DNA of 64,000 nt from Bryoerythrophyllum caledonicum (Eukaryota > Streptophyta > Bryopsida > Pottiales > Pottiaceae), in assembly GCA_963971425.1 (NCBI GenBank), contig OZ020520.1:7172553-7236552 (forward strand). The letters run 5' to 3'. The translations under genes and the position numbers were made by a program. The notes beneath the pieces are model-generated. The model searched no databases. It had not been told where the DNA came from and saw nothing but the letters and a program-made list of their open reading frames with translations. Below, one piece after another: positions 18,754 to 61,930 of the stretch (its first letter is position 1; every line of letters begins with the position of its first letter).

Positions 18754-21700
18754 TCAGCCCTCTTTGAAGAGCTCGCGACCAATCAACATGCGCCTAATCT
18801 CGCTCGTCCCTGCTCCAATCTCATACAGCTTTGCATCCCGGAGAAGACGACCGGTTGGGTACTCATTCACGTATCCATTCCCTCCCAAACACTGAATAGC
18901 CTGGATGGACGGTATGACAACATGTCAACATGAACCTGACTCAATTATGAAATGTGAGAGAGAGCCAAGTGTGGAGTTTGGTACCTGAAGCGCCATCTGT
19001 GTGGCGTTCTCAGCAGCGAAGAGTATCACCGCTGCACAGTCCTGGAAAACCAAGAGGAACCAATCATTGAAATGAGTAGCACAATAAGCAATAAAAAACT
19101 TGGAAGAGGCTTAAATTCGATTCAAAGATAGAAGAGCATACCTTCCTGTCTGCGTGCCCGGCGTCACACATGCGAGCGACGGAGTAGACAAAAGACCTGC
19201 CCATATTCACAAGGAAATAGGTGAATGCTCCACAAAATGTGAGCTCCAGTTACCTATGTATCAATGGGAGGACCAACTAAGCAATATCGCAATCGTTTTC
19301 CTGTGTTATTACATAATGCAATTATCACTGAACAGATCTACTACGGTCAGGACAAAATCAAGGTCTATGAATAGAAAATCAAAGTGCTAAATTGGTTCAA
19401 TATTCAGGTCTTTTCGCTTACCTAGAGGCTTGCATTTTCGTGTACATGTCTGCTAGCTTACCCTACACATTGACATGAGGGCCATGTTTGAGTTAGGATA
19501 CATGGCATTCTTTATGCTCTTTTAAAAGAAATATTTTCCTAGAGCTGAGACTGGACTCGTTTCCAACCGCAGAAACGACTCTTCAATGGAAAAGGGCGGA
19601 GGCAAACCGAATAAACCTCCAAAACTGTGATTAAGAGAGAATTCAAACCAGGCATATTGGTACAAAAGAAGACGAAGATCGTCATGCAGCATAATGCTGT
19701 ATATGGTTTAATCAGAGACCTACCTGCATCAATTGAAATTCACCGATGGCTTTCCCAAACTGCTGACGCTCATGCACGTAAGGAAGTACTACATCAAGGC
19801 ATGCTTGCATCAATCCCAAAGGCCCGGCTGCAAGCACTAGCCTCTCGAGGTCCAACCCAGACATCATGACATACACGCCTGCATCCAAACCACTCGTCCA
19901 TATCAATCAAAAAGTTTCAGAAGACATTTGAACATGTCAAGCTGGTAGACTTGGCTTCTTGTTATATCTACAAACCTTTGCCTTCCTGACCAAGTATCTG
20001 GTCGTTTGAAACAAAACAGTTTTCGAACACAAGCTCGCACCTGTCAGGAATGTGGAATTCAATTAGAGATTGTCCAAAAACAAATGCAGACGAACCCTCA
20101 ATGAAATAGAGAACTAAGTTCGTAGGTTCAAAGGACTCACGTGTCACTGCCCCGCATCCCAAGCTTGTCAAGCTTCTGAGCAGTGCTAAATCTGCAACAG
20201 GAATGGAGACACCGGAGGTTTTTAATGAAAATCACATTGCCTCCCAAAAATATAGACTGCTTCCCGAGTCCAAGCCCAGCTTACCCTTCCATGCCTTTCT
20301 CGATAATGAAAGCTGTGATCCCATGTGCTCCAGCATTCGTATCCGTTTTGGCGTAAACAATCTGGTCAGAGAGAAAGGTAGTTGTCAAAAGAAGCCCTCT
20401 AGAAACAAAAGAAAATATAAAATGTGCTTACGAAAATCACCAGTGTGCTCGCTTTGGGGCCGTTGGTGCACCACATCTTATTTCCATTAAAAATATAACC
20501 ACCTTCAGTCTTTTGAGCCCGGCACTTCATGCTAACGACATCAGATCCAGCTGCCTCAACCATGTTCGCATCAGAGATAGAAAACTTGCTCCATCCCAAT
20601 GCTCAAGACAAAAGATAAGGGAATGGAAATGTACTCACAGTTTGGTTCGCTCATGGCCAACGCTCCAATATGCTCCCCACTAATCAGCTTCAATGAGTAA
20701 CATACCAGTTGTCCACATCAATAACATTTTAGAGAAGCCAACATGTAGAGTAAAAACTTGATTTAAACACTGACCTTTGGTAGGTATTTTTCTTTTTGTG
20801 CCTGTGTTCCATTCCGAACCTGGACAAAGGAGGTCAATTATCACTGAAGCAGACTATCACAAGCAGAGAATAAAAACTAAGAGTAATAAAGAGCGTAAAA
20901 TCCATTTCATACCAGTTGATTGATGCAGAGGTTAGAGTGTGCTCCATACGAAAGAGCAACGGAGCCTGAAGCCCTGCTGATTTCTTCCATGGCGATGCAA
21001 TGGTAGAGGTAGCCCAATCCAAGGCCACCGAATTCCTCTGCACATACAAGCATCAGAAAATGACCCAAGTAAAGAGTGCAATCACATGAGGGATCAAATC
21101 GAAAAGAAGTTCGAAGCAATCTCTCGCCTGGAACAGTAATGCCATGCAGATTAAAGTCGCCCATCAACTTCCACAAATTAACATCCTGGAATAAGAAAAA
21201 AGGAAAAAAAACAAGCTTCAATGCCTTACTAGTGGGAAAACCCTACAGAGACTACAAATCACAACCATAAATGCAATCAGGCTGCGCGAAAACAAGATAA
21301 AAAATCACCAAAAAAATACAACAGAGGTGTGATAGATGTCACAGACCGTTGGGAAGCTGTTATTATGATCAATAGCAGCTGCATGAGGAGCAATGCGCTC
21401 CTGAGCGAATTGCCGGACGCTCTCTTTGAACTGAAAAGAACCGCACATATCTCCCCAATTAGAAAAGAGGCCTCTAGGTTCATGGATTCTTACATGAGAT
21501 CCACGCATTTGAGAAATACCTGCTCCGCAGTGTCGTCAAGTAGAAGGCTCCGGCCACCACCAACTCCTTCCTCCATAACCGCACTAGACGTAGAGATCCG
21601 CCTGCTCGCAAAGTACTGCACAAACAATTCAAACCACTCCAATAAAATAGAACCCGAGACTCTCTCTCAAAGGAAAAAAAGAGCACTTACCGCAGCAGGT

Positions 21701-22709: not shown

Positions 22710-22719
22710 GCATTTAGTA

Positions 22720-23032
22720 CCCGCTCACTAGGTTCAATCCGTGTTCGGGCTGTCAGGCCCTGTTTTGGTCTTCTTTCCGTCTCCCGCGGCCGTCCCCCAA
22801 AAGCATCTTTCCGCCCCCTTGTCCGCGTCTTTTCCTTCCAGCGCCTCTCGCCCTTTCCGAGATCCCTGCCCGATCCATCCCGATAAGCGCCTGCCCGCCC
22901 CTGCTATCGGCGCAGACCCCGAGACCCGATAACACCATATCAGCTATCGGCCTAGGAACGGATCCACGCCCACGTGTACCGGTGGGACCCATCCACCCGC
23001 CCTCCGCCGCCGATAAGCCAGTATCATCCGGG
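22720..23032 (+). repeat. MULE left terminal inverted repeat
   Basis: It matches 32630-32942 in inverted orientation with very few differences (one is CATATCAGC here versus CATATCGGC there). GC-rich, with several TATCG/CGATA copies. A promoter for the + gene probably lies in or just after it. Confidence 0.95.
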
Positions 23033-23802
23033 GATGGTCACAATCATCCATCGCAGGAGGGTTGCAATCAGCCGGAATCCAAATCGATTGAATCTGAAAG
23101 CAATCATTTTTTGCATAGGGTTTCGATGGAGCTATCGCGGATTGAATGACAGGGCGGTCTCTTGATTTGGTCTAGGCGATGTGCTTTCATGGTAAAGCGT
23201 GAGATGGTTTTGATAGCTATAGTTCTGTGGTTGGCGGCTGGTAGTCTCGACAGGAGAATTAGAGTCTCATCATTGTCGCCATCAATTTCAAATGTTCCGG
23301 CGGCGTTGTTCAAATGGCGAAGGCTGCTGTTGGCTCGTTTTCTCTCTCATTTGCAAACCCGTTTGTTTGTACTCGCTATTATCGTTTGCGCTGTTCTTTT
23401 GCGAGCTCGATCTCAGAGAATTCCTTGACATCTTCCATCTCCGACGACGCCTTCTGGTAAGCATGCAAACCCTCCCGCTCTCATTCAGTTTGTAAACCTA
23501 TAGGCTCATATCGAGTTGTGAAGTGGACGCGGGAAGTTGATAGTTAGGGTTTCTGGAACTCGATATTCTCAGTACTATTTTTTCTGGAATCATACTGAAG
23601 TTTATCTTCGATTGGAGTACGAAAGGAGATAACGATTGGAATTCCAAGTGCCGCGCTGATAGGAGTACCAAGGGAGATACCGTTTGGAATACTAAAAGGC
23701 TTTAACTTCTCGGTTTTAGTTTAGGGTTTAGGGTTTCTCATGTACCACGTTTCATAATAAGTTTCATGACTGATTTGCGCTGTATGCTGTAGGTCTGCAA
23801 AA

Positions 23803-26800
23803 ATGCCGAGATGCAACTGCGTCAGTGAGTTACCGAGAGGGGTGGAGGCTGTTCCCACCCACCCGAAGTACAACGATAGGCTGAAGAGGATAGAGCAAGT
23901 TTTCAAGGTGGAGGGGCATTACTGGCAAGACAGCTGGTCTCCTCTCACGGCCAGGAGAATGATTCTGGCGATGCACGGGCCAGACTCGCAGATTTACAAG
24001 ACCAGTGAACTGTCTCCGGAGAAGAAAGCTTTTCACTGTCCGTATTGCAAGGAGGTCGGGCAGAAACATAGGATCAATCTGCACCTGAATCACGCGAAGT
24101 GCCCTGGGCGACCTAACAGGAAAATGCCTGCTTATCCGAACCTCGACATCAAGAATCAACCTCAATTCATACAGAAGATGGTGGATTCTACAATAGTGGA
24201 CGAAATCATTGCTGCTTTCCAACATATCGTCCCACTCGATAGGGCTAGCAGGAAGCCGAGAGGCGGCGGGAAGAGAGCGGCCGGGACTAGATCTCGGGAC
24301 ACGCGCGCAAGAAAGCGAGGAGCGTCGTCCTCTCGGGCATCGAGAGAAGTCCGATTGGAAGCCGATGACGAGGAGTCGTCATCGGATGACGACGATCAGT
24401 ACGAGGCGGGCGAGGATGGCGATAGGTCTGAGGACCGCGAAGATGTCGATGCTAGGCCCATGGACATCGTCGCCTACAGCGTTCCAGCGACATCGAAAAG
24501 TGGGCACTTCGTTTCCGGGAATGTCGCTTCCAGAGCCCCGATAAGCCAGGCGATTGTTACATCAAGTGCTCGTGGTCGGGACATGCACTCGATAAAGCGA
24601 GGTGCATCGTCCTCTCGGGCATCGAGAGCAGTGCATGCACAGGCCCCGTCCGATACGACCACATCGGATGAGGAGGACCAGGACGGGTCGCGAGAGGATA
24701 GCGAATCCTCTGAGGCGCGCGAAGATACCGATGCGCGTCCCAATGAAGCGATCCCGGTCAGGCATCCAGCGACGGCTAAGGGTGGGCAATGCAGCTCCGG
24801 GAACGTCGAGAAGAGGCCTACGATAGGCCAGGATGTTGCAACATCCTCTCGGCGTGCGAGGAGCCCCAAACCGAACTTTACTGCGCGTGCGATGTGTCCC
24901 TTTGACAGCATCACTGCCCCGAATTTCCATGGAGAAGACGATCCATATTCCGTAGGGAATGCACCGGAAGTGCGCGAACAGTACAAGGTGGTGCGGAGGG
25001 ACGATGGACCTAGCGCGACTCTCGCCGATATCTCCGACGAGAGGTTAAGTATCAGACAATACCTCGCGGGGGGCGCTAGGCCGAGGTACAGTAACCCGGA
25101 CAGAGAAGCCAGGGCGCGGGAATTGGAGGAAATGCGCATTCGCGAAATAGAGCGCATTCGTCTCGACGTGGACGAAAAGTACGCGGCGTCCATCCAAACC
25201 GACATACCTCCAGTGAGGCGAACCCGAACTCCTTTGTGGATTCTCATGAAGAATGGTTTGCTGTCTGAAGAGGAGCGTCGCAGCATATCGTCCGAGGATC
25301 ATCTACTTCAGATGATGCAGGACGTTGTGGCGCAAGGGCAGTGGCGTTTTACGTCTGCTATCGGGCAAGCGTTCTGCACACAAGCCATCTCCACCGACGA
25401 GCTAAATGAGTGCAAGCCTATCGTGGAGCTGGCGCAGTTTCCGTGGAGCGAGAAGCTGAGAATTCGGTGGGTTGCTACTGTGAGGGAGACGTGGCTATTT
25501 CTTCAACGAGAGAAGGAGGCGCAAGAATGGGAGGTCTCGGGAAGAGCTAGGGCCGCCAGGATCCAACAAGACCGCGAGGCGGAACTGGTCTCCCGAATTG
25601 CCTCCTACGACAAGGAGCGGTCTGTGGAATGGGAGGCCTTGGTGTGGGACTACAATCTCCTGTTCCACTTCTGCGCCGATAACCCCTTCATTCGCGAGCT
25701 CTTGCCGCCCATGCCATGGAAACACAACTCCGAAGAGGCGAGAGTGGTGTTATCGATCTTGAAGGCAGCAAGTATCGATCCCATGCGTCCTCCCCGAGAA
25801 GCGAGGCTCCTGAAGTGCTGGTTTATCGCCAACGGTTTCAGTAACCGGTTTGTCCCCCCTCTATTATCGTCATCTATTTTACCAGCTATTTTAGGGCTTC
25901 AATGCTATCGGATTCTCGTTCCAGTTCAGAGTTTTTTGTCGTTTTAACAACTACTGGATTGGAGGTATCGCTTATGAGTTATCGGCTGACTGTTGTTTGA
26001 ATTGCAGTGGAACAAATATGTGCCATCCCCACGCGCGAATGACGCCGCTGATGGTTGATAGGAACTCCGATAACGCACATTCGCCTTGGGATGGCGCATT
26101 ATTTCTGTACGAGAAGCTAGGGAGGTTTCTCTTCGGGCATGTGGAGTACGCGGATGAAGATCCGGAGGTGGTAGAACTCCATCAGATGCTCGTTAACGAA
26201 GCGCGTGAATGCGGCAGAGCTGTAATACAGTTCACCCATCACGTAAGAGCGCGGACAGTCATCGACATGGCCTGTAGACACGAGGTGCAGTTTGAGCTGA
26301 GGTGGTGTCAAACCGATCTGGCGTCGTACATGCCATGGGAGCTTCTCGAAGAGCAATGCCTGTTTCGGGAAGACATCGACTTACTATATGTCGGCAGTGG
26401 ATCGAGTAAGCCGTCCGCCACATCGTTTACGATCTTCACTTACAATTTTATGCATATCGTGTGTGAGTACTTATGTTTATCCACTGTCACGTGTGTACAG
26501 ATATGGTAGGTGGTCACCTTATCGGAGTCCATGACGGGCCCGAGATGCAGGCTTGTCTCACGGCGATAACAAATTTCTGCCGGAAGCAATGCGCAGCATC
26601 GGTGTCACGTATTCGATCCGAAGACGTCACGGAGGATTCTTCTCGGAATACTCGAGACATCGAGGGTGCCCAGGCTCTTATCGCCGTCCACGACGGAACT
26701 CCGATTGGGCTCGGAGAGCGACAAGAACCTGCTCAAAGAAGGGAGCACGTAGAGAAGGTCTCTCTCCCGCCGCATATCGTGGTGGAGGACGTCGGCGATA

Positions 26801-28980
26801 AGAAAGATGAGAGTCCTTCAGAACCTGCATCTCGGGAGGGGGAGGAGACGATGGACGTCGACTCCGAGAGGGAGGAGATCTCGGGTAACGAAGGAGATGC
26901 CAGTATCCCCGACCGCGGGTTCGATGACGTCCCGAATTTAAGCCGTGGGAGCGAGGAGCGAGAAGCCGATGTCACACCTGACAACGCCGAGGTCAGCCAG
27001 GAAGCTGAGAACCTAGCGGACCGGCGCACTAAATCTGTAGGCGGTGCTACTGCCGAAGGCGATATGTCAGGCGTCGCTTCTTACATGGTCCCGGTTCCTA
27101 TCGAAGCCGAGAAGGAATGTCGGGCTAAAGAAAACAACGATCCGCCTATCGTTGAGAGGGATTCGCAGCCATCGGAGCCTAGGCTGTCTGAAGAAGAAGC
27201 GGCAATGCCTTCGGAGGCTACCGTACCTGAAGAAGGAGCGGCAACGCCATCGGAGCCTGTTGTGGCGGACGACGGGGACGAAACGCCTCTCGGATGGACC
27301 CAGGTAATGGCTGACCTCACGCTTGGAGATGGGTTGCTAAACCTACACGGGAACCGAACCCCCGAGGACTTACGATTATTACACGGGGTAAGAACACAAC
27401 GTAGTCGTGAAGGTTGCCGAGGGAATTAATAGACAAAACCGTCCTTTTAACCTATCGCGATATCCGCCTATGTATGCTATGTTGTTTGCTTCCCCTCGAA
27501 TCCGTGTCATAGAGACTACGCCCCTAACGACTATAGATTCTTGGTTTTTGTAGGACGGGTTATCGGAACAATGGAGAGAGCGAACTCTAGCGCAAGTCAT
27601 GGAGGGCGTGATGGAGAAGAGGGAGTCCATTGTGTATCATCCAGGACTTCTGGAATCGCTCGCGAAACGCGTCCCTGATAACCCACCCCCGTATGAGTGT
27701 ATGTTGCCCGAGAACCGCCACATCTGCACGTCTCGGATGCCCGACTGGAATAGAGAGCCCACTCTATGCTTCGAGGCTGCAAGTCACTCTCCGGAGCTGG
27801 TCGAGCAAAGTTTGGGTCTTATCGTCGAGCTTCTGAAGCACAGGTTTAGTTTTTTTACTCTTATCGTCCGATACTTCATGTTCGATATCTTGTGAACGAT
27901 AACCCCTTAATACGATATGACTTGTACTGTACAAATGCACGTATCGTTTGCTAACTCACAGTGTCATTTCTGTCCCGCAGACCCCCTGGCAAGAAACTCG
28001 ATGACATTGTAGACGATATGCTCGTCTTCGGCCCGGACAAGAGGAAAGCTGTGACCATATCGCTCAATCGTGCCGACTGGGGCTGCATTCTCCAGGACCG
28101 GCGAGAGCTCGACGGCTCTCTTATGGACTTCCTACTCCGGCATATCGTATACCGCGCTGACCCGGAGGTACGACGGCACTACGCGTTGACTCACAACTGG
28201 ATGTCCAATTGCATGCAGTCGAAAATCGATGACGCAAGCACATGGGACGAAGTCGTGTATTACATCTATCGTACCGTGCGTACCGTATCTCGACTCGAGG
28301 ACACACTAGTGGTGCCCTACCAGAACATGGGTCATTGGAGTATATTTGTCGTGGAGGACTCCCAGACGATACAATTCGACACGTTGAATATGCACCGGGA
28401 CGAGCGAGCGGGCAACTTCGCGTTTGTGTTGCACATGGCGTGGGCGATGGCGAGGGGTGTTTCGCCAAAGTCGGCCATGTGGAGGAAGTGGCAAGGACGG
28501 AAGGTGAAGAGGTTGCCGATTCCAAAGCAAGCGTTGTCGTGGGAGTGCGGTTACGTGTCGTGCTTAGCATTCTGGCAGTACCTCGTCATACGTGGGAGTA
28601 GTCCAGTGTCCGATCCGGATTTGCTGAAGAACCACAAATGGCAGGACTGGGCGGGGTCAAAAGCGCGACTGTGGTTAGTTCAGGCGTTCTATCTCGAGCT
28701 TATTTCCCCGCCCAATGGGTTTTCTAAGCCTACAGTTGATGTCTGGAGTCCTGTACAGGCATATGTTCTCGCCAGCGAGAACATGGAGGGCGATGATGAA
28801 ACCATGGAGATGAGCCCGGAAACAGGAAGGAGGAATACGACGAGGGCTGCTATCGACTTGGGTATCGAGAAGACGATAGCATTGGAGCTCAAGGGATGTC
28901 GTGTGAGGCAGGCTCTCGGCGAAGCACCTAGGGAAGGGGTGAAGAAGCCGGGCACGAAGAGAAAGCCGAAGAAGAAGTAG
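23803..28980 (+). CDS. MULE-borne zinc-finger protein with Ulp1 (C48) protease
   Basis: Five coding exons (23803-25847, 26008-26405, 26501-27387, 27554-27843, 27981-28980) join to 4620 nt, 1539 residues. A further intron (23457-23792) lies in the 5' UTR. Residues about 79-103 hold a C2HC-type zinc-finger-like cluster ('FHCPYCKEVGQKH...H..H..C'). Residues about 165-360 contain two diverged copies of a 90-residue Ser/Asp/Glu-rich segment, each starting 'KRGASSSRASR'. Exon 3 is acidic and looks disordered. The C-terminal third is a Ulp1-like cysteine protease: 'DWGCILQDRRELDGSLMDF', His in 'MGHWSIFVV', Asp in 'IQFDTLN', and Gln and Cys in 'PKQALSWECGYV', so the full His-Asp-Gln-Cys set is present. 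The family removes SUMO or related modifiers; a role in countering host silencing is an inference from VANDAL-type elements. Confidence 0.88.
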
Positions 28981-29389
28981 GCTCAGAGCTTCTTCTTCTT
29001 GTATTTTATATGTACGATAGGTTAGGCTCAGACATATCGTGCGACGATAGGTGTGTATACATTCATTTTCCGATCAAATACCGGACGAATCTGTACTGTA
29101 TATTCCATAATGTACAAGAATGTGTTGGTAATGAAATGATCGCGAAGATGTCTTTCTATCCTGGCTATCGTTTATCTATGCATTATAATGTGTATTTGTC
29201 CTAGCAATCCTGTTTGTATCCTGTCGAGGACTATACCTCCCACGATAAGAACTATAGGAGCGAGAGCAGTATACCTCTTCCGATAAGATGAACATATGTA
29301 GGAGAGGACGATGGACCGCAATATGGCAACCCGATAACGCGGTGGCGTTATCGGATATCTAAATTTAGAATATAGACTACTGGCTATGC
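28981..29389. other. MULE convergent intergenic spacer, motif-dense
   Basis: It separates the 3' ends of the two MULE genes and codes for nothing. It contains about eight TATCG/CGATA copies in 409 bp (for example GACGATAGG, CTATCG, CCGATAAG, GTTATCGG), far above expectation. Confidence 0.7.
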
Positions 29390-32300
29390 TTACTGCGTAA
29401 GGTTCTCGGGAGCACGAGCCGAGGAATGTCGGTAACCTCGCGAATCTAAGAAATCGCGCAGTCTTTGAAGCCTCATTCCGAGCCCGTCTCGGTTACAAGG
29501 GAGGGAATGAACAATCTGCTGCAGTGGATGAAGCATGCCGGCATCAATATCTGCCTCGATTCTGGACAATGTCGCATCCATACTTCGTAACCCGGCGTCC
29601 AAGTGCCGCGCCAGTATCGGTTGCCGATACGCCTTATCGAGGAGCTTCAAAATGAGTTGGTGCATGCGGTCGAAGTCAACTGACCACACACTTCCCAGTT
29701 CTCGTGTTGGCAATGTCTCGAAACATACATCTCGGTCACATGATCTTGAAGGCAAGATATCGTTGGCGTCGATATCGAGAACAGGCCGTAGGATTTCCGA
29801 TCTCTGGTCGTTGGAGAGCAGGAGATTTGTCATACCTCCTTGGGCCGTGCCGCGTAGAGAGCCGAGGTATCGGGCAATCTTGCCCGAGGCGAGGTCGGGT
29901 CTCGTTAACTCGAGTACTTTAACTTGATGCTTGCAGATGTTCCCTTTCTGGGAATACACACACTCGCAGACGGCCCACTCTGTGCAGGGATTGTATATAG
30001 CGTACGCAATGTGACCTCGTTTCGAAGACCTAACCAAAGCCGGTCCTCCAATATACATTGGCAATACGACGTTCTCGTTTGGGATCGAATTGGCTTGAAT
30101 AATGGAGTTTACCATAATCTGCCTCAACTTCTTGTTCTTCACGAACCCGTTCTGTTTACTCCAGTCGGTGTAGTCATATTTCTCAATGACATTCCCAGTG
30201 AGCTCATAGATAAGCCAGTCCATCCGTCGGCCGATAAGCTTCCTTTTCGACTGTCGCAAGACGGATTTCATGTTCGAATGGAATGACTCTATCGTAGCTG
30301 TGGTATCCTGGCCCGCATGAGGGATCTTTCTGTCTCCCACTACCCACATATGGATTTTCGGCATCCATTCCTTGTCAAAATACTTCCAGTACTCCTTTGC
30401 ATCTGGAATGCGTGCCTTTGCCTCCATATAGACGTGTTGAACCCACTCTAACAACGTCCAGATCCTCGTAGGAGCTCCTCTCGTAGCAGGGTCATCGCAA
30501 TCACTTGGTGTCTCAGACATGTACATAAGATCCCCTACAGTACGCAATGCAGCAGCTCTCGTCTCCATGTCTTTCAACTTCGTACAAGCGTTCTTTTGCC
30601 AGGCTCGACGCACGTGCCACAAGCATAGGAACAGAAACGACCGAGGCCAAACTTCCCTGCGATAAGTAAAAACACGATAACCCATCAGATAACCCGGCAC
30701 GATACGAGAAAGCCGGAACGCCGATATGTCGGATCATCCCGACCTGAACCTGACGTACAAAAGGCAAGATATGAAACCAGAGGGGGTATTCTGTGAGTCT
30801 CTATAGTTTCTTACCGGAGTGAGTTGATCTCGTTATCGGCGTCGTCGAGTACGAATGCTGTAGGTCTCCATCTTGGGTTGATTTGCTCTAGCTTCTCTTT
30901 TAGAGCGTGCATCCAAGGCACTAGATCACTTTGTTTTGATCTCGCGGTGATTATAAAGGCGACGGGCACGCCATTCCTCCAGTCGTCGAACACCATCATC
31001 GTGAATAGAGGGTACTGTAAACAATAGGAAATATTAGTACTAGAAGATACGAATCGATGTAGCAGAAGTTCGTAGATAGGATGAGTAGACACATTCAGAG
31101 CGAATCGTAAAGGCGCATACCTTCTTGTTGTTTGTAGCGAAGGTCCCGTCTATCGCAATAATGCTATCGTGCCCATAGTTGAGCATCATCCGCAGCTGAA
31201 AGGGGGTCTGAATCCCTATCACGAAGGGCACGTTGTCAGAGTTCAAGACCCCTTCTATCTTAGTCCCCGGATCCTGGTAGTAGAATACCATCTCTCGATT
31301 CTCTCGTACCCACATTCTAACACTCTCGGCATCATTATGGTGCTTCTGGTAGAGTTCTTGCGCACGGACGCCACAAATGTTCCGAATATCCTCCATGCTC
31401 AGGAAACAATCCCGAGAAGGTGTGAGCGTGCCCTCATTGCGTCCTTTGAGTACCAACCTCTGATGCTTTAGTTTAATCGATTCCATAGGAACGAGCTCGT
31501 CGTACTGCCGTAGAACCCAATCTCTAACCTCCTCCGATATGCACTTTCGGAATCTGAGTCTCCCCCTTGTGATGTTTACCTTATCGTGAACGATAATGCC
31601 CTCTCTATCAACGTGATCTTTGCAGAAGTACCCTATCTCGGCGATAGATGGTAGAAAGTAGTACCTCTTTACATAGAATCTACATTGGCAGCCCACCTTC
31701 ATAGACCCTCCCTCCTTCGCGTCAGTAGCACGAGGGCCTTTCTGACCACGTCCTGAGTATATCTGTTTTCCTTTCCGATTGTATCGTCGTGCTGTGGGTG
31801 CCATATCGGGAGTGATATCGTCGATCTTGTCTCTATTGTCTTGGGGACCGTATTGACAACGCCATCTGCAACGACAGCCGAGAACTTTTAGTGATGGATA
31901 CAGTGCGCAGTAGACGATATGACAGTAACCCTCGTAACAGCAATGACCATCTTACCGTTGAAGCTCGATGGGGCAGTTCCAGCGATAGTGGGTCTTATCT
32001 CCCACGTTCGTGGGGTCGAATTTATCCCGCACGAATGTGGTCTCGACGTCCTTTCGGCCTGATTGCTCACCGTTCACGAAATCCATTACTCTATCCCATG
32101 GAATGTAGGCGATAAGCTTCGATTGCTTTCCCTCACCGGGGTCATGATCAGGAAGACCATGGAGGTCATCAACAGCGGACTTCGTCTCCCTCTCGGCCTC
32201 AATATTCCACCTCAGATCTTTCCAAGTTAGCAAACCAGGTGGAGGCTTATGTAATGCATCACGCATCCTAAGAACCTTGTGACCATGCTTCATGAGGTAC

Positions 32301-32497
32301 CGAGCGTGCGGGCCTTCTCGGATAGCTGTATCTAGATCTTGCACACCCTCCTCACGCACACCAGCAGGCTTCTTTCGACCCTGCCGCCTCCATCCTCTCG
32401 CTGCCACCCCGTTATTGGCTCCACTCCGAACTGGTACCTCACTTGCATCCACACCTGGGAAGACCGGCGGCAGGAGATTCAGATCCAGGAACTCCAT
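29390..32497 (-). CDS. MULE transposase (zinc cluster, DDE, SWIM)
   Basis: Four exons in gene order (32497-31956, 31865-31121, 31014-30815, 30656-29390) join to 2754 nt, 917 residues, all with GT-AG introns. The N-terminal half carries a WRKY/GCM1-like cysteine/histidine cluster ('HYRWNC', 'WRCQYG', 'VGCQCRFYVKRYY', 'CKDH') that probably binds the element ends. The catalytic core shows Asp in 'IIAIDGTFATNN', Asp in 'FVLDDADNEI' and Glu in 'TIESFHSNMKS', the expected DDE triad, plus the 'LCLWHVRRAW' block between them. A SWIM zinc finger follows ('AVCECVYSQKGNICKHQ'). No stop or frameshift breaks it. The enzyme cuts and rejoins the element at its inverted repeats in the nucleus. Confidence 0.93.
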
Positions 32498-32629
32498 TCC
32501 CGCTGCCTATCGGTGACACTCTACTCTCCCGCGAGCACAACAAATGGCGCCGCAATGAACACGGGCTGGGAAGACGTTGCAAGCCGAGTCCAACATAAAT
32601 CATCTACATCATATCCGCTCCTCGGATTG

Positions 32630-32942
32630 CCCGGATGATACTGGCTTATCGGCGGCGGAGGGCGGGTGGATGGGTCCCACCGGTACACGTGGGCGTGGAT
32701 CCGTTCCTAGGCCGATAGCCGATATGGTGTTATCGGGTCTCGGGGTCTGCGCCGATAGCAGGGGCGGGCAGGCGCTTATCGGGATGGATCGGGCAGGGAT
32801 CTCGGAAAGGGCGAGAGGCGCTGGAAGGAAAAGACGCGGACAAGGGGGCGGAAAGATGCTTTTGGGGGACGGCCGCGGGAGACGGAAAGAAGACCAAAAC
32901 AGGGCCTGACAGCCCGAACACGGATTGAACCTAGTGAGCGGG
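32630..32942 (-). repeat. MULE right terminal inverted repeat
   Basis: Inverted counterpart of 22720-23032. It ends in GTGAGCGGG, directly followed by the target duplication GCATTTAGTA. The 130 bp between this repeat and the transposase ATG (32498-32629) must hold its 5' UTR. Confidence 0.95.
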
Positions 32943-32952
32943 GCATTTAGTA

Positions 32953-33169
32953 CACTAAACATCGCATTTAGTGTAGCGCCCAGTAAATGACTTGTAAATG
33001 CTATAAGTTTTTACTTTAAGTGAATAGTTTTACCAACTATGTTTATGATGATCCTCTTATTTGAATACTATAGAGAGTTGTGCTCTTGGTAAAAATTGGC
33101 ATCAAGTGAAAAAATTTATAGCATTTACAAGTCATTTACTGGGCGCTACACTAAATGCGATGTTTAGTG
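32953..33169. mobile_element. 217-bp MITE with TA duplication (Tc1/mariner-like)
   Basis: Inverted arms of about 53 bp begin CACTAAACATCGCATTTAGTG and are almost perfect, with TA directly outside both ends. Each arm tip is itself a small hairpin (CACTAAA.../...TTTAGTG). The MULE inserted just outside the left end of this element, so the MITE was there first or marks a preferred target. TA duplication suggests the Stowaway/mariner type. Confidence 0.8.
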
Positions 33170-33575
33170 TAGTTGGATTCAATTTGTTCCTATCGGATGG
33201 TGGAGAATAAATGAGTTGTTCCCAAAACTCAATCTCCATAATTATAGGTTAATTTGAATACAATTAAAGTTGAATGCAAGAAGAAGCAATGATTTGATGA
33301 AATCCATAGTGTATCGTTTTGGTAGGACCCTTGCCTTTCTTCTCACTTTTCTAATCTCCTCTTGTGACTATTGTGTTGTGGACCTAGATGCAACTGGTAC
33401 TCAGAGTTGCATAGTCTTGTACATAATTTTATTGTTTAGTGTCACAATAAGTCTTCATTTCAAGGGAGCATTGTAGCTTCAGACTACATGGCCTTTCTTG
33501 TGAGACTGCAAAATATAAGACACGGACTTCTAAGTTATATTTCTCCTAAGACATGAAGAGATGTTGTAGAAAACA
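33170..33575. other. Intergenic, nothing recognised
   Basis: AT-rich DNA without coding potential or clear repeats. Confidence 0.45.
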
Positions 33576-33589
33576 CAATTTAACCTTTA

Positions 33590-33980
33590 AACGTTAGTCG
33601 GGTATCATATATATAGACAAGTATTTTTTTGTAGATTACAAAAAATGTTACAGTATTGAAGAATAGCAAGACATACACCTTTGAATTGAAGATTCCTCAA
33701 CTAACACCTCTAATTTGTAGGCCATTTCAATGTTCAAATACAACACCGTACATGTAGAATATTGTAGCCACTAGTGAGCTATTCCAATGTTTAATGTCAA
33801 CCCTTAAAGGTCTGTAGGGGACCATATATACGGTCACGTATTTTACTATAGTAATACAAAAATGTATTAAAATTTAGTAAGAAATACACCTTTGGATTGA
33901 AGAATCTTCAACCAATTTCTTTCATTTGGAGGTCATTTCAATATTTCAACCTTATCATGTTCAAATACGACACTATAAGA
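33590..33980. repeat. Two diverged copies of a 215-bp unit
   Basis: Both copies contain an ACCTTTAAA/CCCTTAAAGG start, CATATATA, GTATTTT, TACACCTTTG-ATTGAAGA and ATTTCAAT in the same order and spacing. They have diverged considerably. Confidence 0.6.
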
Positions 33981-33984
33981 AGAG

Positions 33985-34135
33985 AACTCTGGTCCTTGAA
34001 GGAGGCTGGAGTGAATAAAGTGTTTGTTTGTTCCACCACTAAATCCATGTCTACTAGACATAGGCTTAGTAGTATGGAAACTACTCCCCTTCTCGAAGAT
34101 AGACTTCCCTTGTGGGCACCAATGGCACCAGATGT
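33985..34135 (-). mobile_element. LINE 3' UTR fragment, antisense
   Basis: The reverse complement follows the 3' UTR at 9790-9965, including the capped hairpin (TCCATGTCTACTAGACAT) and the following TTAGTAGTATGGAA. Only the tail remains. Confidence 0.75.
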
Positions 34136-34559
34136 GAGGCACCTTCCTTTTAGAAAAACTATACTAGAGTCTAACCTCTTTAAAATGTCATTTAACAATT
34201 ATGTGACTCCTTGAGTTTAAATTGAATTGTTCATTCAAAATGACATTTAGCAATTCCAGCGTTGCTTCTAGAGATCCTAGAAATTGCGCAGACTCTGCCG
34301 TGTCAACTACACATGCGCGACTTCCTTCTTCTTTCTTGAATCTTTCTCACCGTATGATACAACTGAGAACATACATTCAAACACAATTGATGCAACTCAA
34401 GGCCGCTTCCTGTGCAAAGTAGACCATTTGACGCGGAAGAATCTGCCCTACAACCATCCAGAGAAGATTGAGCCCGTTGCCCACTCTTTGAACAACGTCG
34501 CGAGAGAAACTGCCTCCATTGACCCCGTTTGAGCTCTCCCGGCGTTAAAGGGTTAAAAT

Positions 34560-35960
34560 GCACAATAATAGATGTCTAAAGGTTGCCAAAAAGTATTTAC
34601 AAGAAAAAAGATTGTCAAAAAGTACCTACGAGAAAGAAGAACCTTAATCCGTGATGCACGTGTTCCCATTGTTCACAACTTGTTCCCAACATTCACAACT
34701 TGTTCCTAGCATGATAACATGTCCCCAATTCATTTATTCCCTCCATTATATGACGAAGCGGGGTTCTCAAAGTGTCACATTATTGAGTTGTCAAAGTTGC
34801 ATCATAGGAGTTTTAGACTACAAAGTTTGGTCACAAGAAAATGTGTCATATAATCAAGGTTGTAGTATAATATAGAGTCGTAATAAAGAGGTTAGAGCAT
34901 GTCCACCGCATGCCCATTTGAAGAGTTACCCAAAATCAAAGGGATTCACATGGAGGGGATGCGGTGGAGCACCCGCCACAATCTGCATGCCTGGGCCATC
35001 AACCGGCCCACCACTGCTTCCTTCAGTGTGCCCCGCATAAAAAGAATCGGTGGATATGCTCTTAGAGCATGACCATCGCTCCTTCCTATACAGGGCACAA
35101 CAAAGGAAGCAGTGGTGGGCTGGTGACTGACCTTTTGTGGCAGTTGACCCACTGCATCCTCTCCACGTGAACCCCCCTTGATTTGCTCTTGATTGCCCAT
35201 TTGTTGCAAATCATGTGTGCAAGCATATTTGAACCAAATTATGTTGACCAAACATATCGGCGTCCCCAAAATTCCCACACCATAGTTGTGTGAAATCACA
35301 AGTATTTGGAGGGACTCCATATTTGGAGTGATGAATATTGTCTGCGGTGGGGTGTGTTGGAGCCGTATGACGCTAAAGTTCTCTTGCCAAACCTATTGGC
35401 GTGGTCAGATGGGAGGATGAGGATTGAGTAAGCTCCACGTTTTTTGGTGAAGGAAGAGAAGACTTAGACTCAGATCTAGCACCTACGAGCATTAAGATGT
35501 GGCTGGACTTACTGAGGAGCCCTCGTTTGTTGCAGATCTGATGTTTGATGAGGTTTTCGGTAGCAGACTGTTTGTTGGGGAGTGCTCCTACTCTAGATCC
35601 AAGATCAACTCGAGGGAAAACGTGGAAGTGCACTAGATCTATGTGATGAGAGATTTGAAAGCGAGCACACTTGTGTGTTGATGCATAGGACTGAAAGCGA
35701 GCGTGTGTTGGCATATGAGTAGAAAGTGGGCAACATTGTGTTGGTGCATATTTTGAACGCATTAGACACGTTTTGCAGCGAGATCTGACTTAGATCTAGA
35801 TCATGGAAACAAGATCTGCAACCTCTCACTAAGTCCTCCCCACCCGACCTAGCCACCAAGCCATTCAACATTGCAAGGACGACCAGCATAGGCGCGCACC
35901 ACGGCAACAACCACTCTCCAACTCTAGCTACTCTCTACACCTTACACTACGTTTGTTTAC
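34560..35960. other. Intergenic, possible old repeats, no gene
   Basis: No gene is supported. A GTTCACAACTTGTTCCCA-like step is repeated near 34665-34710. Around 34905-35180 two segments with CCACTGCTTCCTTC/GAAGCAGTGGTGGG-type sequence form an inverted arrangement, perhaps a decayed MITE. ORFs at 35373-35910 on the minus strand have no recognisable motifs. Confidence 0.4.
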
Positions 35961-36288
35961 TATTTTTTTTGTTGTACTTCCACCTCTTCCTTCATAATAG
36001 CAACACACTCAATAGCAACACATCATATAGATTGCACCAAGATGTCCTAGCTGCTAGAAATCAGTCACAGAGATCCCACCTTAGAACCCACAAGTTAATC
36101 AGTCACCTACCACCCACTACCTCCTCTCATCACAAGAACACTACGCACAGTGATACCCCGTCTCACACACATAACAAAGTCCAAACAACACTCACAATTC
36201 AAGTGCAGAAACACCATTCAGCACCTAACAGGCCAACCGCGGAAAGTAACACCCTAGCACAGACAAGGAGCACCCCAGGTGAGAGCAG

Positions 36289-36412
36289 GCTCCAACCGGC
36301 GAGGAGTAGTCTTCAGCCGGCCACGAACACTCTTCAGCCGGCCAGGAATAGCCTTCAACCGGCCATGTGCAACCTTCAGCCAGCCAGGAGCAGTCTTCAG
36401 CCAGCCCCACCA
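36289..36412 (+). repeat. 21-bp minisatellite, nearly 6 copies
   Basis: The unit CTTCAGCCGGCCAGGAGTAGT is repeated with 1-5 changes each and encodes LQPARSS-like heptads in one frame. It lies in the 5' region of the LINE. Confidence 0.85.
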
Positions 36413-36839
36413 AACAAACAAGGAGTGCCCCAGACGAGAGCTGCGACCTGCAGCACCAAACAAAAAAGGAATCAGCAAAAGGAGCAACAAAAACACGATG
36501 AGGGACAACAACGAACCATCACACAAGACCAGCAAGACGTCCCTGCCTTGATAAAACAGGTTGGAGCTCACGCAACAACAGGTGCAAGGGAGCTCAACCC
36601 CCACACACGCCACATCTATGACACTGAAGGCCCACCAAGAGCAGCCAAAACAAACAGGCTACATCTTACCTCAACTCTTCATTTACTACAATATCACCAC
36701 ACTCCTTGTTCTTGCATTTTTTACTTTTGCTTCGTAACTGTATGTCATTGCCTAATACTAGACCCTAAACAAAAGAAAAATCTAAAAACCCTGGCCTATA
36801 GCTGCAGGTACACACACTGCACAAGAATAGAAGCAACAC

Positions 36840-38040
36840 TGCTAAATGATAACCATCTCCCCAAGCGTACCACCTCGAACAAGACTCAGAGACAAGATAC
36901 TGCATCGCACAAAACCTCAAGAAAGAACAAGCAGCGCAGCGGACAAACCTCAAGCAAGAGAAGACACACCTCAAACAAATCGACGCACCCCGTCCAACCC
37001 GACCGTCTATTGCAATAGTGAGCGTCCACTGGAGGCGCAGGAACGGAGAACCAAGCTGGCAGCCCATCGCAGCACCCAGCGATCACCAACAACGTGAAGA
37101 CAAACAGTCTCCCCACCCGAGCACTACAAGAAACAACAACAAGAAACGACGTAAGAAAAAAAGGAGACCTCTCCACCCGGAGCCCCTGCCCAAGCCGCTG
37201 CTCGACGGCACGCAGCGCCGTAGCCCTAACTCCAGAACCAAGAAGTTACCAACCCTCAACCTCCTCCCCGACAACATTGCCAAGAAAGCCCGCACCCATT
37301 CACAAAACAACAATCTCGTCCCCAACTCCAGAGGCAAAGATAAGTTCTCCTACACACTTTAACACCATATTCATTATATTGGGAGATTTCCATGATTTTG
37401 ATCTAGTGCACATTCAGCTCGACTCGAGCTGAATGTGCATAGTGGGTACATTTTAGAGCTCAAGAGCAACATACGTATTAAATTGGGAGGCTCACAATCT
37501 CCCAATATAATGAATATGGTGTTCTTTATACTTCGAAGTTCTTTCTAACAAGATACAATTGGCATGTAAAGTACAGGACTTTGTGGAGGAAGCAGATCAA
37601 ACAGCACCAACATCAGGTCCCCCAACAACAAAATCTACAGTGCAAGAAGGAGACGCATCTCAAGTCGACTCACCTCGCCCAACCCGACCGCCCACTACCA
37701 CAACGAACGCCCACAAGACACGAAGGAACATAGAAGCAAGTTGGCCACCCATCGTAGAAGCCAACGATCACAAACAAGGTAAGTGCAGACAAACTCCCCA
37801 CCCGTTCACTGCAGGAAACAACAACAAGAAATGACGTGAGCGCAGAAGAAGACGTCTCCACCCGGAGCCCCTGCCCAAGCCGCTGCATGACGTCACCCAA
37901 CGTCGTAGTCCTAATCTCAGAATCAAGAAGACACATGCTCTCAACCTCCTCTCCGAAAAGAGTAACCGCACCCACACACAAAGCAGCAGTCCCGTCACCA
38001 ACACCAAAGGCAAAGGTAAGTTCTCCTACGCACACCATAC
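36840..38040 (+). repeat. Tandem duplication of a roughly 690-bp segment
   Basis: 37100-37355 and 37790-38030 are diverged copies sharing CCACCCGGAGCCCCTGCCCA, AACAACAACAAGAAA and GGTAAGTTCTCCTAC-type sequence in the same order. Preceding parts (about 36900-37090 and 37590-37780) also correspond. Such tandem monomers resemble the 5' UTR promoter repeats of some LINEs. Confidence 0.65.
37361..37523. mobile_element. 163-bp MITE between the duplicated segments
   Basis: Inverted ends ACACCATATTCATTATATTG and its complement are perfect for at least 25 bp. A 33-bp perfect palindrome (37407-37439, arm TGCACATTCAGCTCGA) lies inside. The flanks share CTTTA within one base of the ends, a possible target duplication. 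Confidence 0.75.
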
Positions 38041-38400
38041 CTCAAAGACCTCTCTATCAAGAAACAAGCGGCAAGAACAGTCCTGGACGTTGTGCAGGAC
38101 GCACTGGAACCGGACATCAAGGCTGAATACAAGCACGACAACCCTGCCTACTCCAAAAACAAGTAGCCAAAAGTCGAATAAGCACGAAGAACTTGGAGGA
38201 GAAATGCTGGACGTTGGCGACAAGGCCGAGTACAGGAAAGGCGCCATTCAAGAAGAGAGAGTCGTTACGAACACGAGTAGCAGCCACCACACCCACCAGG
38301 CAACTTTCTCAAAGAAATCCAAGCAACTAACAGAACAAGGACAACCCAATAAGAAATCCTATCAGATAAACTCCCTAACCCAATCCCGTTATATCTTACC

Positions 38401-40034
38401 TAACATGACGGGTAACACCAAGAAAAGCTTTAGCGCCCACATGGAGATAAAGGCCATGGACGACAACTCCACAACGACCCCAACCGCGAAAACACCAAGA
38501 AGGATGGACAAGGAAGGTGGGAGCAGCAAGAAAAGCAAGGTATCCCCGAGACAAGAAGGTAAGATAATCTCCACACCAGAACTATGCTCCTTCGAATTTT
38601 GGATGGGCTTCCAAGCTATGGAAGAAATTGCAATTGAAGAGGGCGTTGAACCTCTATTAAGCGGTAAAACGGTGGAAGACATGGTCACTAGAGGGCTAAA
38701 ACCGGAGGAGGCCAAGGAGGTAAGCGTTGCAAGGGTAGCATTTCCCCGAATCCCACAAGTGCTATACCCAATGTCAAGGAAAGGGGTGGTTGGACAACAC
38801 TACAACATTATCCAAATTCCTTTCGACATTCTCACAAACGTGAACTCTAGTATGTCACTAGACTTTCATGTTGGAATTCACTTCTAAATTCCACAAACCA
38901 CTATTATGCATGATGAGGTAAAGGAGATGGTCATTGCAAGGTTAAAAATGATGAACATTTCTCTTGGCAAACAATTAATTGACCCTATAGCTATTCAATG
39001 TCTAAGCATCAAACAAGGGAAGATTAAGGGGGTGTGGGCGGGAAGCATTAAGTTACATTTGCTCAAACCCGAAGTAGATGGATTGATGTTACTAAAAGGC
39101 ATTAGACCCTTCATTTTTAAAATTGAAGGAGAACTAGTTGTTGGCAAAGTTTGCAAAGCCTACCAAAATATTTCTAAGGGTACTAACCTCTCCATGAAGG
39201 TCAAAAGTATTGCATTGAAGGATATCAGAGCTCAAGCACTCTTCAAGAAGTGCTCAAAGATAGCTTCCGCCGAGGCTTCGAATTCAAGCTAACGGGAGTA
39301 CAAAAGAAATATGAAGATTCCCACGCCTTTCTTATTACTACTACTTCCAAGCAAGTGAAGAAAATCCTCCTCCACCAAGCGACCGCCCAACATGAAGTAT
39401 TGGAAACAAGACAAGTGCTTGAAGTCAATGGGCCAAAAGGTAAACTTGAAACTAAAGCTAAAAAGATGCACTAACCTTAATTTTATCTCCCCTCCCCATT
39501 CATTTGGATGTAGTGCACACCACCCAAGAAATTTACAAAGTCATGGGTGGAGCAAATGTCCGCTCCGTATAGTTCTACAAGGATAACGGCACTAGCCATA
39601 ATGACAATGCCAATATTCTATGTGCTAACCCTATTGTGTATAGGACCTTTGTGGGGAAAACTCATATCATTGGAGGTAACTATGTGGATTTTGCACCTCA
39701 CTGACGTAGCTTGGAAGGAGACACCCCTTCCTCCATGGAAGAAATCAAATCCTTTGGATTTGATGACATCAACACGGCCATTGTCAACACCATGTCCACC
39801 TTCCAAACACAAGGAAAGACCAACAATGTGACCAAGGAAGAACTAGTGGTACTATTGGAAGAAAACAACAAGAAAATCCGGGAGGAGAATAAAGAATACG
39901 CCGATATGAAGAGCGAGGAGTTGAAGAAACAAATGGCAAGTGTGCAAGATTCTATGAAGGCCGCCCTAGCCACACTACAAGTCATGGCAAGCACTATGTC
40001 CACCCCAATGCTTGAAGATGGAAGGCCAAACTAG
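38401..40034 (+). pseudogene. LINE ORF1 remnant with C-terminal coiled coil
   Basis: Coding sequence can be followed from about 38401 to the stop at 40034. A TAA at 38885-38887 interrupts it in frame. The frame changes near 39250-39290 and again between 39480 and 39700. Visible segments include 'MEEIAIEEGVEPLLSG', 'GKIKGVWAGSIKLHLLKPE', 'SIALKDIRAQALF' and, at 39711-40034, a Lys/Glu-rich stretch 'ELVVLLEENNKKIREENKEY' with coiled-coil spacing. Position upstream of an APE-containing ORF2 suggests an RNA-binding ORF1 protein, but I see no zinc knuckle and cannot name a domain. Confidence 0.5.
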
Positions 40035-41241
40035 ATAGGTACAAAGACTACAAACTACTACATAGAAATCGAATAGTAAGCCATATCCATAGTATACTAC
40101 ATATAGTATTTAAACAATACTCCAAATACACAGTAGAACACAAGTATGCCAATACCAATACAATATCCGAATACTGTATTAGACATTGTACTCAATACAA
40201 AAACTACATACAAAAACCGAGATAAAAAAACATACTTGTATAATATTCAAATACTATACTCAATACTATACACCAAACACAAGGTTTAGCAAAAAAATAC
40301 ATATGAACGTAAATACAAACGTAAGACCAAATACAAACCAAAAAAACACATACCTCCACATACACACCACCACTATACATACAACCATAGCCACAAACCC
40401 AACTAAACACACAACCATGGATATACACAAACACACAACTACCATACTCTCAAGGAATCATACCTCTTATTGCACAACCTCCCTCATGACCCCCTATAAA
40501 AAAATACACACAATTAACAATACACAAACACATACACCCCCCAAAAAATAGCATCTACTTAAAACTATACAAATACAAAAATACACCCACCCTCGCATAC
40601 ACACCAAAAACTAGTCTCACACCCACAAACACAAATCCAATCAACTATACTATCACACACGCAACACAAAATATTTCACACACAAAAAACTACTTCACTG
40701 ACAAAAAAATAACTACTCTCCACACAATGAGTCACCCCCTACACAAACTCACATAAAAGTACTACAAACACAAGCACTTTCCAAACCACACCCAAACCCA
40801 CATATACAATCATCCATACTAAAACAAGTAATTATAGACATAATAACACACACTTATACACAAGCATAAAAACATACACAAAAAATGTACACACAAACAC
40901 ATATATAATAACACTCACACACAAAGATATAAACAAAACCATAACTACCTCTTTTTTACTAAAATACAAAATAGAAACCCTACTTGCCATTACAAACAAA
41001 AAAAATCTCATATACCTTACAAAACCAAATACATTTAATAAAGAACAAATACTATTCAACACAAATATCTATTCCCATACAAATAAAAACACATACACAT
41101 ATATCAATACAAAAAAACCTACAAACACATACACACACAAGAGTACGTACATGAACACAAATACAAAACTAAGAAACAAACAACAACAATGCATCAATAT
41201 AAACACAATAAAAATTATAAATAATAAATACAAAAATATAA
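40035..41241 (+). other. A/C-rich spacer between LINE ORF1 and ORF2
   Basis: The + strand is dominated by A and C (ACACAAAC, AAATACAAA, CACATACAC), with G nearly absent. Random ORFs of low complexity occur but none is convincing. It may be untranslated LINE RNA or a second target-like repeat. Confidence 0.5.
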
Positions 41242-42743: not shown

Positions 42744-43346
42744 TGTCGTGCACAACCGCATCGTGCCAAGATAACATCGTGCTAATCAGGTGAGAACGCA
42801 CAGTCAAAGACAACTCGAGAGTAACGGTGACATAACCACCACCGTTACCTCTATAAAATAATAATACAATGCACACTTACACACTTTCAGCAATCCAGAC
42901 TTGGGGAAAAAGAAATAAATGACCCATGACCTCGTACACCAAGAAGTAGTAAGCGGTCTCCAAGTACCCCTTTACTAATAAACAAGTAGAAAATACTCAT
43001 AAACTACACATAGTCAAGCCAATGCCATTCTTAAAGAATAGTCGCATAATAACAATGAAGTTCAAGAAGTGCACGCACGCACGCACTCTCTCACTCCATC
43101 ACGTGGGAGACTCAACTTGAGAAAGATGAGTCTCCCCACACTACACGTGGAGGTCATTTGGACTCCAAGTCCCAAATGAGGTGTCAAAAGACACCACCAA
43201 GGCCCTAAAAGTCAAATAACACTAATACTAACTCTAATTAACAACTAAAGCTAGCATCTAGGGTTTCCTTGGGCCATTTAACCTCCTAGTTGGTTTACAA
43301 CGCGTAAACCAACCTCCACAAACCCTCCAACGCGTCGAACCTGACA
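42744..43346 (-). mobile_element. Gypsy 3' LTR (candidate)
   Basis: In the + direction it reads TGTCGTGCAC ... GAACCTGACA, giving 5'-TG...CA-3' ends and a length of 603 bp. LINE coding sequence stops exactly at its outer edge. Its terminal 235 bp (42744-42978) are repeated at 43349-43580. The matching 5' LTR lies outside the window, so the boundary is not verified. Confidence 0.6.
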
Positions 43347-46928: not shown

Positions 46929-46937
46929 CCTTGGTTG

Positions 46938-57297: not shown

Positions 57298-57319
57298 CTT
57301 CTTGACTCCGCCGCCGTTC

Positions 57320-57620: not shown

Positions 57621-57769
57621 AAAACTCCCCCCCAAATGAAAATCACTTTCTCCCTCCCAAAGATGAGGAGCCAATGGATGGAAAAATGCCAGCCAAAGCC
57701 ACTCCGCATCCACTCAAAAATATATTTCAATTTTCGAGAGGGGAAGGAAAAAGTGAGAGAGAGAGGTTG

Positions 57770-61915: not shown

Positions 61916-61930
61916 AAGTGCTCCAGAACC

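Follow-up and report, generated by a model that had tools for sequence, protein, structure and literature searches.

Why should a five-letter word, TATCG, fill one transposable element and stop at its edges? The question is raised by a 64-kb window of Bryoerythrophyllum caledonicum (64,000 nucleotides of contig OZ020520.1, the whole stretch analysed here), in which positions 22720-32942 are a complete Mutator-like element (MULE) with terminal inverted repeats (TIRs), a 10-bp target duplication and two open, spliced, convergent genes. One of these, T (32497-29390, minus strand, four exons, 917 aa), encodes the transposase and the other, U (23803-28980, plus strand, five exons, 1539 aa), a second protein. 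The reading we prefer, with a probability of roughly 0.6, is that this is an autonomous-looking MULE in which U would read the word, coat the element's own copies and counteract silencing, the words of related families having changed alongside.

The initial annotation had recognized a Mutator-like element, and its structure bears this out. The 10-bp duplication falls within the 8-11 bp span given for MULEs in the accessible part of PMC6446971, the TIRs are long, and T has a MULE transposase domain with a SWIM finger. The MULE-domain match is weak and under the Pfam cut-off (PF10551, E 0.0066), and a search of the protein collection with T exon 4 gave 39 relatives, including P0043 (PF10551) and P0023 (PF04434), with the SWIM-type cysteines and histidine invariant in 28 aligned rows (27 of the 39 relatives plus the window copy). 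Both gene models are predicted from the genomic sequence, with GT-AG joins picked by hand.

Counted on either strand (TATCG or CGATA), the word occurs 98 times in the element, with the two strands holding 52 and 46 copies. A reading by eye had given about 95-100 against a chance value of about 20; the count stands, as does the excess, and the expectation is somewhat higher, 300 dinucleotide shuffles giving 25.0 ± 5.0 and never more than 41. Under a combined null, in which exons were shuffled among synonymous codons with proteins and codon usage fixed, the remainder was shuffled by dinucleotide and one TIR was counted, 92 copies were observed against 26.6 expected (maximum 40; 0 of 1000 shuffles reached the observed count). 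The 5-mer count against shuffles that had been proposed as a check puts TATCG at the top of all 512 strand-collapsed 5-mers, including within exons when proteins and codon usage are fixed. Its density steps sharply at both element ends: outside them the window holds 47 copies against 59 expected, in line with chance, and 33001-43000, to the right, where fewer than ten had been claimed, has 6. None of the outcomes named beforehand as refuting was encountered: the count is far above expectation, coding and non-coding densities differ (see below), and within the window the enrichment is confined to the element.

The word is longer than the five letters first proposed, which proved family-specific but incomplete. 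The base at position -2 of TATCG is C or G in 76 of 92 sites, and under the combined null [CG]NTATCG occurs 76 times against 14.8 expected while [AT]NTATCG occurs 16 times against 11.8. The same preference governs TCTCG (54 against 20.6 for [CG]NTCTCG, 15 against 15.8 for [AT]NTCTCG). The neighbour classes TATC[ACT], T[GT]TCG, [ACG]ATCG, TA[ACG]CG and TAT[AGT]G lie at 0.77-0.90 of expectation, all neighbour classes tested other than TCTCG fall within 0.77-0.99, and no single neighbour of TATCG apart from TCTCG exceeds 1.16. The real word is about 8 bp, S-N-T-M-T-C-G-K, with A preferred over C at the fourth position (S-N-T-(A>C)-T-C-G-K). Given the effect of the -2 base and the neighbours at expectation, this is the profile of a bound site and not a composition bias. 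Exons hold more TCTCG than expected (60 against 30.3 in synonymous shuffles), which is not clearly the case outside them (9 against 6.2), as would suit a second-best site used where coding limits choice.

This specificity bears on the rival explanation that the word is a compositional or mutational artefact, a trace of how bases are used or mutate in the element, or in an earlier host from which it was horizontally transferred. The element does have GC and CpG above most of its surroundings, with CpG retention of 1.08 against 0.74 in the window remainder, but CpG composition alone fails as an explanation because TATCA, TATCT and TATCC show no clear increase and the -2 base has an effect. Also against an artefact, the specificity reaches a base two positions away with the tested neighbour classes not enriched, different MULE families of the one genome carry different words, and at least 73 near-identical places in that genome (see below) indicate residence or bursts there; we give this explanation almost no credence. 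A DREF-type palindrome, TATCGATA, was also considered and occurs 0 times in the element.

Within the element, TATCG density is highest in introns (19.7 per kb) and TIRs (17.6), followed by other non-coding DNA (9.9) and exons (7.6). The initial annotation's regional estimates for the last intron (about six), the convergent spacer (about eight) and the inverted repeats (several each) agree with the counts in Table 1, and only the first coding intron, put at about five, holds one fewer. Its view that copies are densest in non-coding parts holds, density differing between coding and non-coding parts (p=0.0014), but by number the word is not mainly non-coding, as 56 of the 98 copies are in exons. 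These exon copies far exceed synonymous-codon shuffles in both genes (U, 35 against 10.9; T, 21 against 7.7). T fills the wobble position in 19 of 27 cases before ATC|G, as against 7 of 29 where ATC|H follows (p=0.001); the choice of third base thus depends on the next codon and on the base after that. This synonymous codon effect means that selection for the word can reach inside coding sequence.

No simple arrangement accounts for the positions. Tandem Repeats Finder returned 3 short rows in the element and no tandem arrays of the word, which excludes an origin by tandem repetition as in VANDAL21; the spacing of TATCG positions shows no departure from random (coefficient of variation, p=0.11), and there is no support for TCTCG filling gaps between TATCG sites (nearest-site distance 68 against 64 bp). 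In U intron 4 (27844-27980), four CGATA copies stand 14, 14 and 16 bp apart, with no tandem repeat detected.

Dispersed, strand-balanced short words are familiar from bacterial uptake and Chi sites, a precedent for a rival explanation in which the word serves DNA transactions (replication, repair or target immunity) or RNA, rather than chromatin. Chi and uptake sites are far sparser than one per 100 bp, and the element's density of about one site per 100 bp argues against that comparison. An RNA-level or splicing signal is likewise disfavoured by the strand balance and the presence of the word in TIRs and spacer, with both orientations occurring in genes, introns and spacer. We consider a role of this kind very unlikely.

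The word is shared by the element's copies in the host genome (437 Mb, 894 contigs searched). With the C-terminal exon of U as query, and the best 121 of 355 candidate places scored so that the counts are lower bounds, the window's element belongs to a family (A) of at least 73 places at 94-100% identity. Thirty of these 73 loci were examined over 4 kb each, the window copy included, and all keep the word, with 35-44 TATCG; the 29 others have a median divergence of 1.3% from the window copy. Genome-wide, a pattern of two TATCG with six bases between them was matched 348 times, and its reversed control 289 times. Elsewhere in the genome TATCG recurs in runs at intervals of 11 bp, at L006-L008 (G000 C1:11720888 area) and at G000:C3:17552157-17552205.

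Related families differ in their words, as the proposed comparison with other MULEs had anticipated: a lengthened word was found in family B and other words in families D and E. As family B we group at least 48 places at 39-46% identity to the U C-terminal exon, of which two were read (L039 and L040). TTATCG occurs there 47 and 51 times against about 3.7 expected, and among the 60 TATCG sites of L039, T stands at -1 in 47, C or G at -2 in 48 and C or G at -3 in 47, while T stands at -1 in only 32 of 92 family A sites. The family B word is SSTTATCGKC, longer than that of A. Families A and B are 29-40% identical in U over aligned parts and about 71% identical in T; B aligns to U residues 2-811 and 1135-1450, with 40% identity in the C48 region. 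The aligned transposase codons contain 22 motifs in A and 13-15 in B: 8-10 stand at a common place, 12-14 in A only and 5 in B only. These shared and private places indicate a word partly inherited and partly turned over.

A remoter transposase, P0024, served as query for other families (best 96 of 891 candidates scored, 11 loci read). TATCG was enriched in none of the 11 (1-7 copies against 4.2-6.9 expected, the highest ratio being 7 against 6.9) and lies under expectation in families D and E. These two families, each read as two copies in 10-kb stretches (L052, L053 and L054 overlap L041, L042 and L047), are 29-37% identical to T and have words of their own: GCACTAC occurs 16 times in each of the two copies of D against 0.5-0.6 expected (z about 14, whereas the highest z in 40 shuffles was 6.1), and AGGCCA 20 and 22 times in the copies of E against 4-5 (z 7.3-7.6; best shuffle 5.5). 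The words of D and E are at background in other families, and A and B share a core.

The reach of the word into coding sequence recurs in these families when open reading frames (ORFs), taken from stop to stop and possibly including intron, are compared with 500 synonymous shuffles. In B, the excess is clear in transposase exon 4 (L040, 8 against 1.2; L039, 5 against 0.65; 0/500 each) and in U exon 1 (L040, 6 against 1.5, 0/500; L039, 5 against 1.3, 3/500), and T exon 2 has 2 and 1 copies against 0.25 (12/500 and 112/500). Family D shows an excess in ORF1 (6 against 0.9) and ORF2 (4 against 0.2; 0/500 each), with none that is significant in the transposase ORF alone (116/500), and family E in its transposase (5 against 1.2, 0/500) and a 460-aa ORF (4 against 1.0, 5/500), with none in two of the four E ORFs tested (230/500 and 290/500).

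The word thus changes as the second gene, and also the transposase, diverges between families, suggesting that every family codes for a protein by which its own copies are recognized. Could that protein be the transposase? MULE transposases bind TIRs, and internal sites might help T to find, bridge, mark or regulate its own element. T and word do change together over families (about 71% identity A to B, 29-37% to D and E), the TIRs rank among the element's densest regions for the motif, and MURA is reported to cause TIR hypomethylation in the accessible part of PMC10398659. However, 87 of the 98 sites lie outside the TIRs and the outermost 161 bp of either TIR have none, so that we regard the transposase as an unlikely reader.

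A host DNA-binding protein, such as an insulator, a GATA-type factor or a CGATA-reading activator, might instead keep the chromatin open, with a different host factor for each family. There is a precedent in Drosophila BEAF-32B, a BED-finger protein described in the available part of PMC5021357 as reading CGATA clusters without clear spacing or orientation rules, although a C-x2-C...H-x5-C stretch is found in U itself (with no Pfam match to a BED finger). The chance level of TATCG in the window remainder, including near host-gene-like exons, argues against a host factor, as do four families with four words, for which several host factors would be needed. We therefore find this rather unlikely.

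The preferred candidate for the reader is U, which the initial annotation had described as a zinc-finger plus Ulp1 protein. Both features can be traced, as a C-x2-C-x11-H-x5-C stretch and as H, D, Q and C residues in Ulp1 register, but Pfam support is weak. The four residues occur in order and are invariant in the window U and three relatives (4/4 sequences), and they line up with the corresponding residues of SENP1 and Ulp1 (hhalign E 0.0016, probability 16%; score 30.1, the highest among 20 column-shuffled controls being 25.3). PF02902 does not match the window copy, and its relative P0001 matches at E 0.081 (13.2 bits, under the cut-off of 20.7). A profile of the C48 exon retrieved no C48 entry among solved structures, and its structure model is poor (mean pLDDT, a per-residue confidence score, 38), with a strand and helix order read as fitting an Ulp1-type fold. 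Kinship of U with Ulp1, weak by sequence, is therefore likely. Relatives are fewer for U than for T (3 for the C48 exon and 1 among the best 8000 candidates scored for exon 1, against 39 for the transposase exon); U relative P0004 is 82% identical over its aligned part, and no relatives were found in viral and prokaryote contigs or in plasmids.

Second genes of the other families bear comparison with U. In a set of 7 sequences, their central regions match at E 2e-8 (U-D2), 9e-14 (D2-E1) and 0.002 (U-E1), and by these alignments the second genes of the families are related. The N-terminus of the D protein, from an ORF read by eye, has a finger-like C-x2-C-x12-H-x5-C, and a separate D ORF ends in an Ulp1-like ...VPIVDSTHWSLAILSSRGFLKFDS... 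segment that matches U weakly (E 0.017). An Ulp1-like segment would thus be present in A, in B and in part in D.

We hypothesize that the U protein, with its zinc-finger and Ulp1-like parts, recognizes S-N-T-A-T-C-G-K on either strand. Selection would have placed a copy roughly every 100 bp throughout the element, synonymous codon positions included, and U would coat its own family's copies and little else. Bound U would then most likely counter host silencing, by methylation loss or by deSUMOylation of silencing factors, while in related families diverged second genes would have had their words changed to match. That the product of U is the reader is inferred as the simplest account, and anti-silencing as the outcome by analogy with known systems, foremost the VANDAL elements of Arabidopsis.

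VANC21 binds YAGTATTAY in VANDAL21 (Hiun) and induces methylation loss, and VANC6 of VANDAL6 has other motifs (PMC5735166). Like the element described here, VANDALs are MULEs with an extra gene besides the transposase, this second gene being variable with internal peptide repeats, and they have a short enriched word that differs between related families and is densest in non-coding DNA (PMC5735166). The VANC pattern is matched here in family specificity, in the covariation of word and gene, in more relatives for T than for U and in the internal repeats of U. The likeness to VANDALs first drawn from this sequence holds for words differing among related families and not for tandem repeats: VANDAL words form same-orientation arrays, often in tandem and mainly in non-coding DNA, whereas here the word occurs in both orientations, without tandem arrays and at synonymous sites. 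VANDAL TIRs are degenerate, as the accessible part of PMC10398659 describes them, while those here are 313 bp with one mismatch. VANC binding and hypomethylation have been demonstrated (PMC5735166), whereas this element is known from its sequence.

VANC also has a DUF1985 domain, which we did not find here. No U exon matched it at E 0.1, the only match, TP1, being under the cut-off (E 0.032), and a genome search for PF09331 gave 0 matches, although this search had no positive control, no control genome giving a match either. By this absence we favour an equivalent that would be independent of VANC, with common descent as the less favoured alternative. Ulp1-bearing VANC genes are described for KIU/Kaonashi, angiosperm non-TIR MULEs, in the available part of PMC13317346, which places the Ulp1 capture near the monocot-eudicot split. 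KIU/Kaonashi resemble the present element, so far as that part goes, in a MULE second gene with an Ulp1-like domain and differ in being non-TIR, whereas here we find TIR elements, a zinc-finger-like N-terminus and no DUF1985 match. No report of the present system was found in the open-access literature searched, which did not cover a study on eudicot anti-silencing coevolution. Among maize transposons, TnpA acts at the terminal regions of Spm. MURA of MuDR and TnpA resemble the proposed system in being encoded by transposons and associated with demethylation of the family that encodes them, and MURA acts at TIRs with no word through the whole element, unlike here (accessible part of PMC10398659).

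Several observations weigh against this interpretation. Divergence of the transposase along with the second gene means that covariation does not single out U. The zinc-finger region of U matched no Pfam family even at E 10, and structure models of U exon 1 and of the C48 exon are too poor to use. In the other families, no Q...C part was found downstream of the Ulp1-like segment of D and no Ulp1 part in family E; the family E word passes cross-validation in one direction only, and no convincing private word was found in L048-L051 (the top words of L051, CGTCCC, CCGTCC and CCCGTC, have equal counts and look like a repeat). The ability of relatives' proteins to encode the motif was mixed over nine comparisons, with extremes of 14/15 (control 0.74), 4/7 (control 0.79) and 3/6 (control 0.68).

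The proposed protection from silencing is also imperfectly reflected in the CpG record. Conservation of the motif among family A copies is only suggestive: non-CpG motif sites are polymorphic in 15 of 127 cases against 615 of 3240 other sites (p=0.048), and motif CpG sites in 25 of 86 against 184 of 516 other CpGs (p=0.27). CpG mutation in these copies is 0.0188 against 0.0113 at their other sites, and outside motifs the CpG changes are mostly C>T/G>A (198/289); this faster mutation indicates that family A copies are not wholly spared methylation-type decay. The single mismatch between the TIRs, at 22942, itself falls on the CpG of a motif, where the left repeat reads TATCA and the right one TATCG (G/A). 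The CpG retention of the element is also not unique, being 1.22 in 56001-58000.

To our knowledge, VANC is the only known case of a transposon protein with a short word that lifts silencing from a whole family. The host genome here contains four MULE families, each with a word of its own and with second genes that are related, and family A has many near-identical copies, so that direct tests of how words and proteins coevolve are possible. We propose only tentatively, at somewhat under even odds, that they represent a radiation of self-recognition codes, in which several MULE families with diverged zinc-finger/Ulp1-type proteins would use private 6-10 bp words of VANC-independent origin, and selection would have turned every element, synonymous sites of its genes included, into a binding array for the protein that it encodes.

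Table 1. Features of the element (window positions; motifs are TATCG on either strand)
Feature	Position	Strand	Remarks
Left target-site duplication	22710..22719		GCATTTAGTA, 10 bp
Left terminal inverted repeat	22720..23032	+	313 bp, 5 TATCG
U (second gene) exon 1	23803..25847	+	GT-AG joins give one open frame
U zinc-finger-like stretch	24037..24102	+	C79-x2-C82-x11-H94-x5-C100
U intron 1	25848..26007	+	4 motifs
U exon 2	26008..26405	+	hand-joined open frame
U exon 3	26501..27387	+	hand-joined open frame
U 39-bp (13-aa) triple repeat	27168-27284		in exon 3; copies 64-77% alike
U exon 4	27554..27843	+	hand-joined open frame
U intron 4	27844..27980	+	6 motifs in 137 bp
U exon 5, Ulp1/C48-like domain	27981..28980	+	H 28333, D 28378, Q 28528, C 28546
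Convergent spacer	28981..29389		8 motifs in 409 bp
T (transposase) exon 4, SWIM-type C-x-C...C-x-H	29390..30656	-	
T exon 3, MULE domain	30815..31014	-	PF10551 E 0.0066; open frame 30814-31149
T exon 2	31121..31865	-	
T exon 1	31956..32497	-	
Right terminal inverted repeat	32630..32942	-	313 bp, 6 TATCG
Right target-site duplication	32943..32952		GCATTTAGTA, 10-bp direct copy

The window holds other mobile DNA. A Gypsy-type element (43813-47963, minus strand) has an integrase followed by a PHD finger, and reverse transcriptase/RNase H; the best solved matches of its upstream ORF are DNMT3A/3B (E about 0.01 to 0.1). With this DNMT3-like stretch and PHD finger it resembles, by sequence, KnitGypsy-Dnmt3, a DNMT3-carrying Gypsy of the charophyte Klebsormidium, as described in the accessible part of PMC5890265. 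Gag-like and protease-like pieces lie at 61103-63624, and the Gypsy element was perhaps split by later insertions. At 4103-9739 (plus strand), an ORF resembling a long interspersed nuclear element combines reverse transcriptase with an in-frame PCIF1 WW-domain match (E 1.1e-9) and is followed by an RNase H ORF. A protein-kinase-like ORF (55849-57393, minus strand; Pkinase E 1.1e-5, under the cut-off) lies in CpG-rich DNA near an ORF with a hAT dimerization domain (58236-59297).

Close to the element, an isovaleryl-CoA dehydrogenase match (20913-21053, minus strand, E 2.5e-17) lies about 1.7 kb from the left end; within 20907-21535 (minus strand) an exon-like stretch at 21305-21535, and more exons of this gene nearer the element, were recognized by eye only, and the element is on the upstream side of these exons. 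Its right end is adjoined by an inverted repeat at 32951-33171, whose edge the right target duplication overlaps; the arms of this repeat, 86 nt each, are 87% complementary and enclose a loop of 49 nt.

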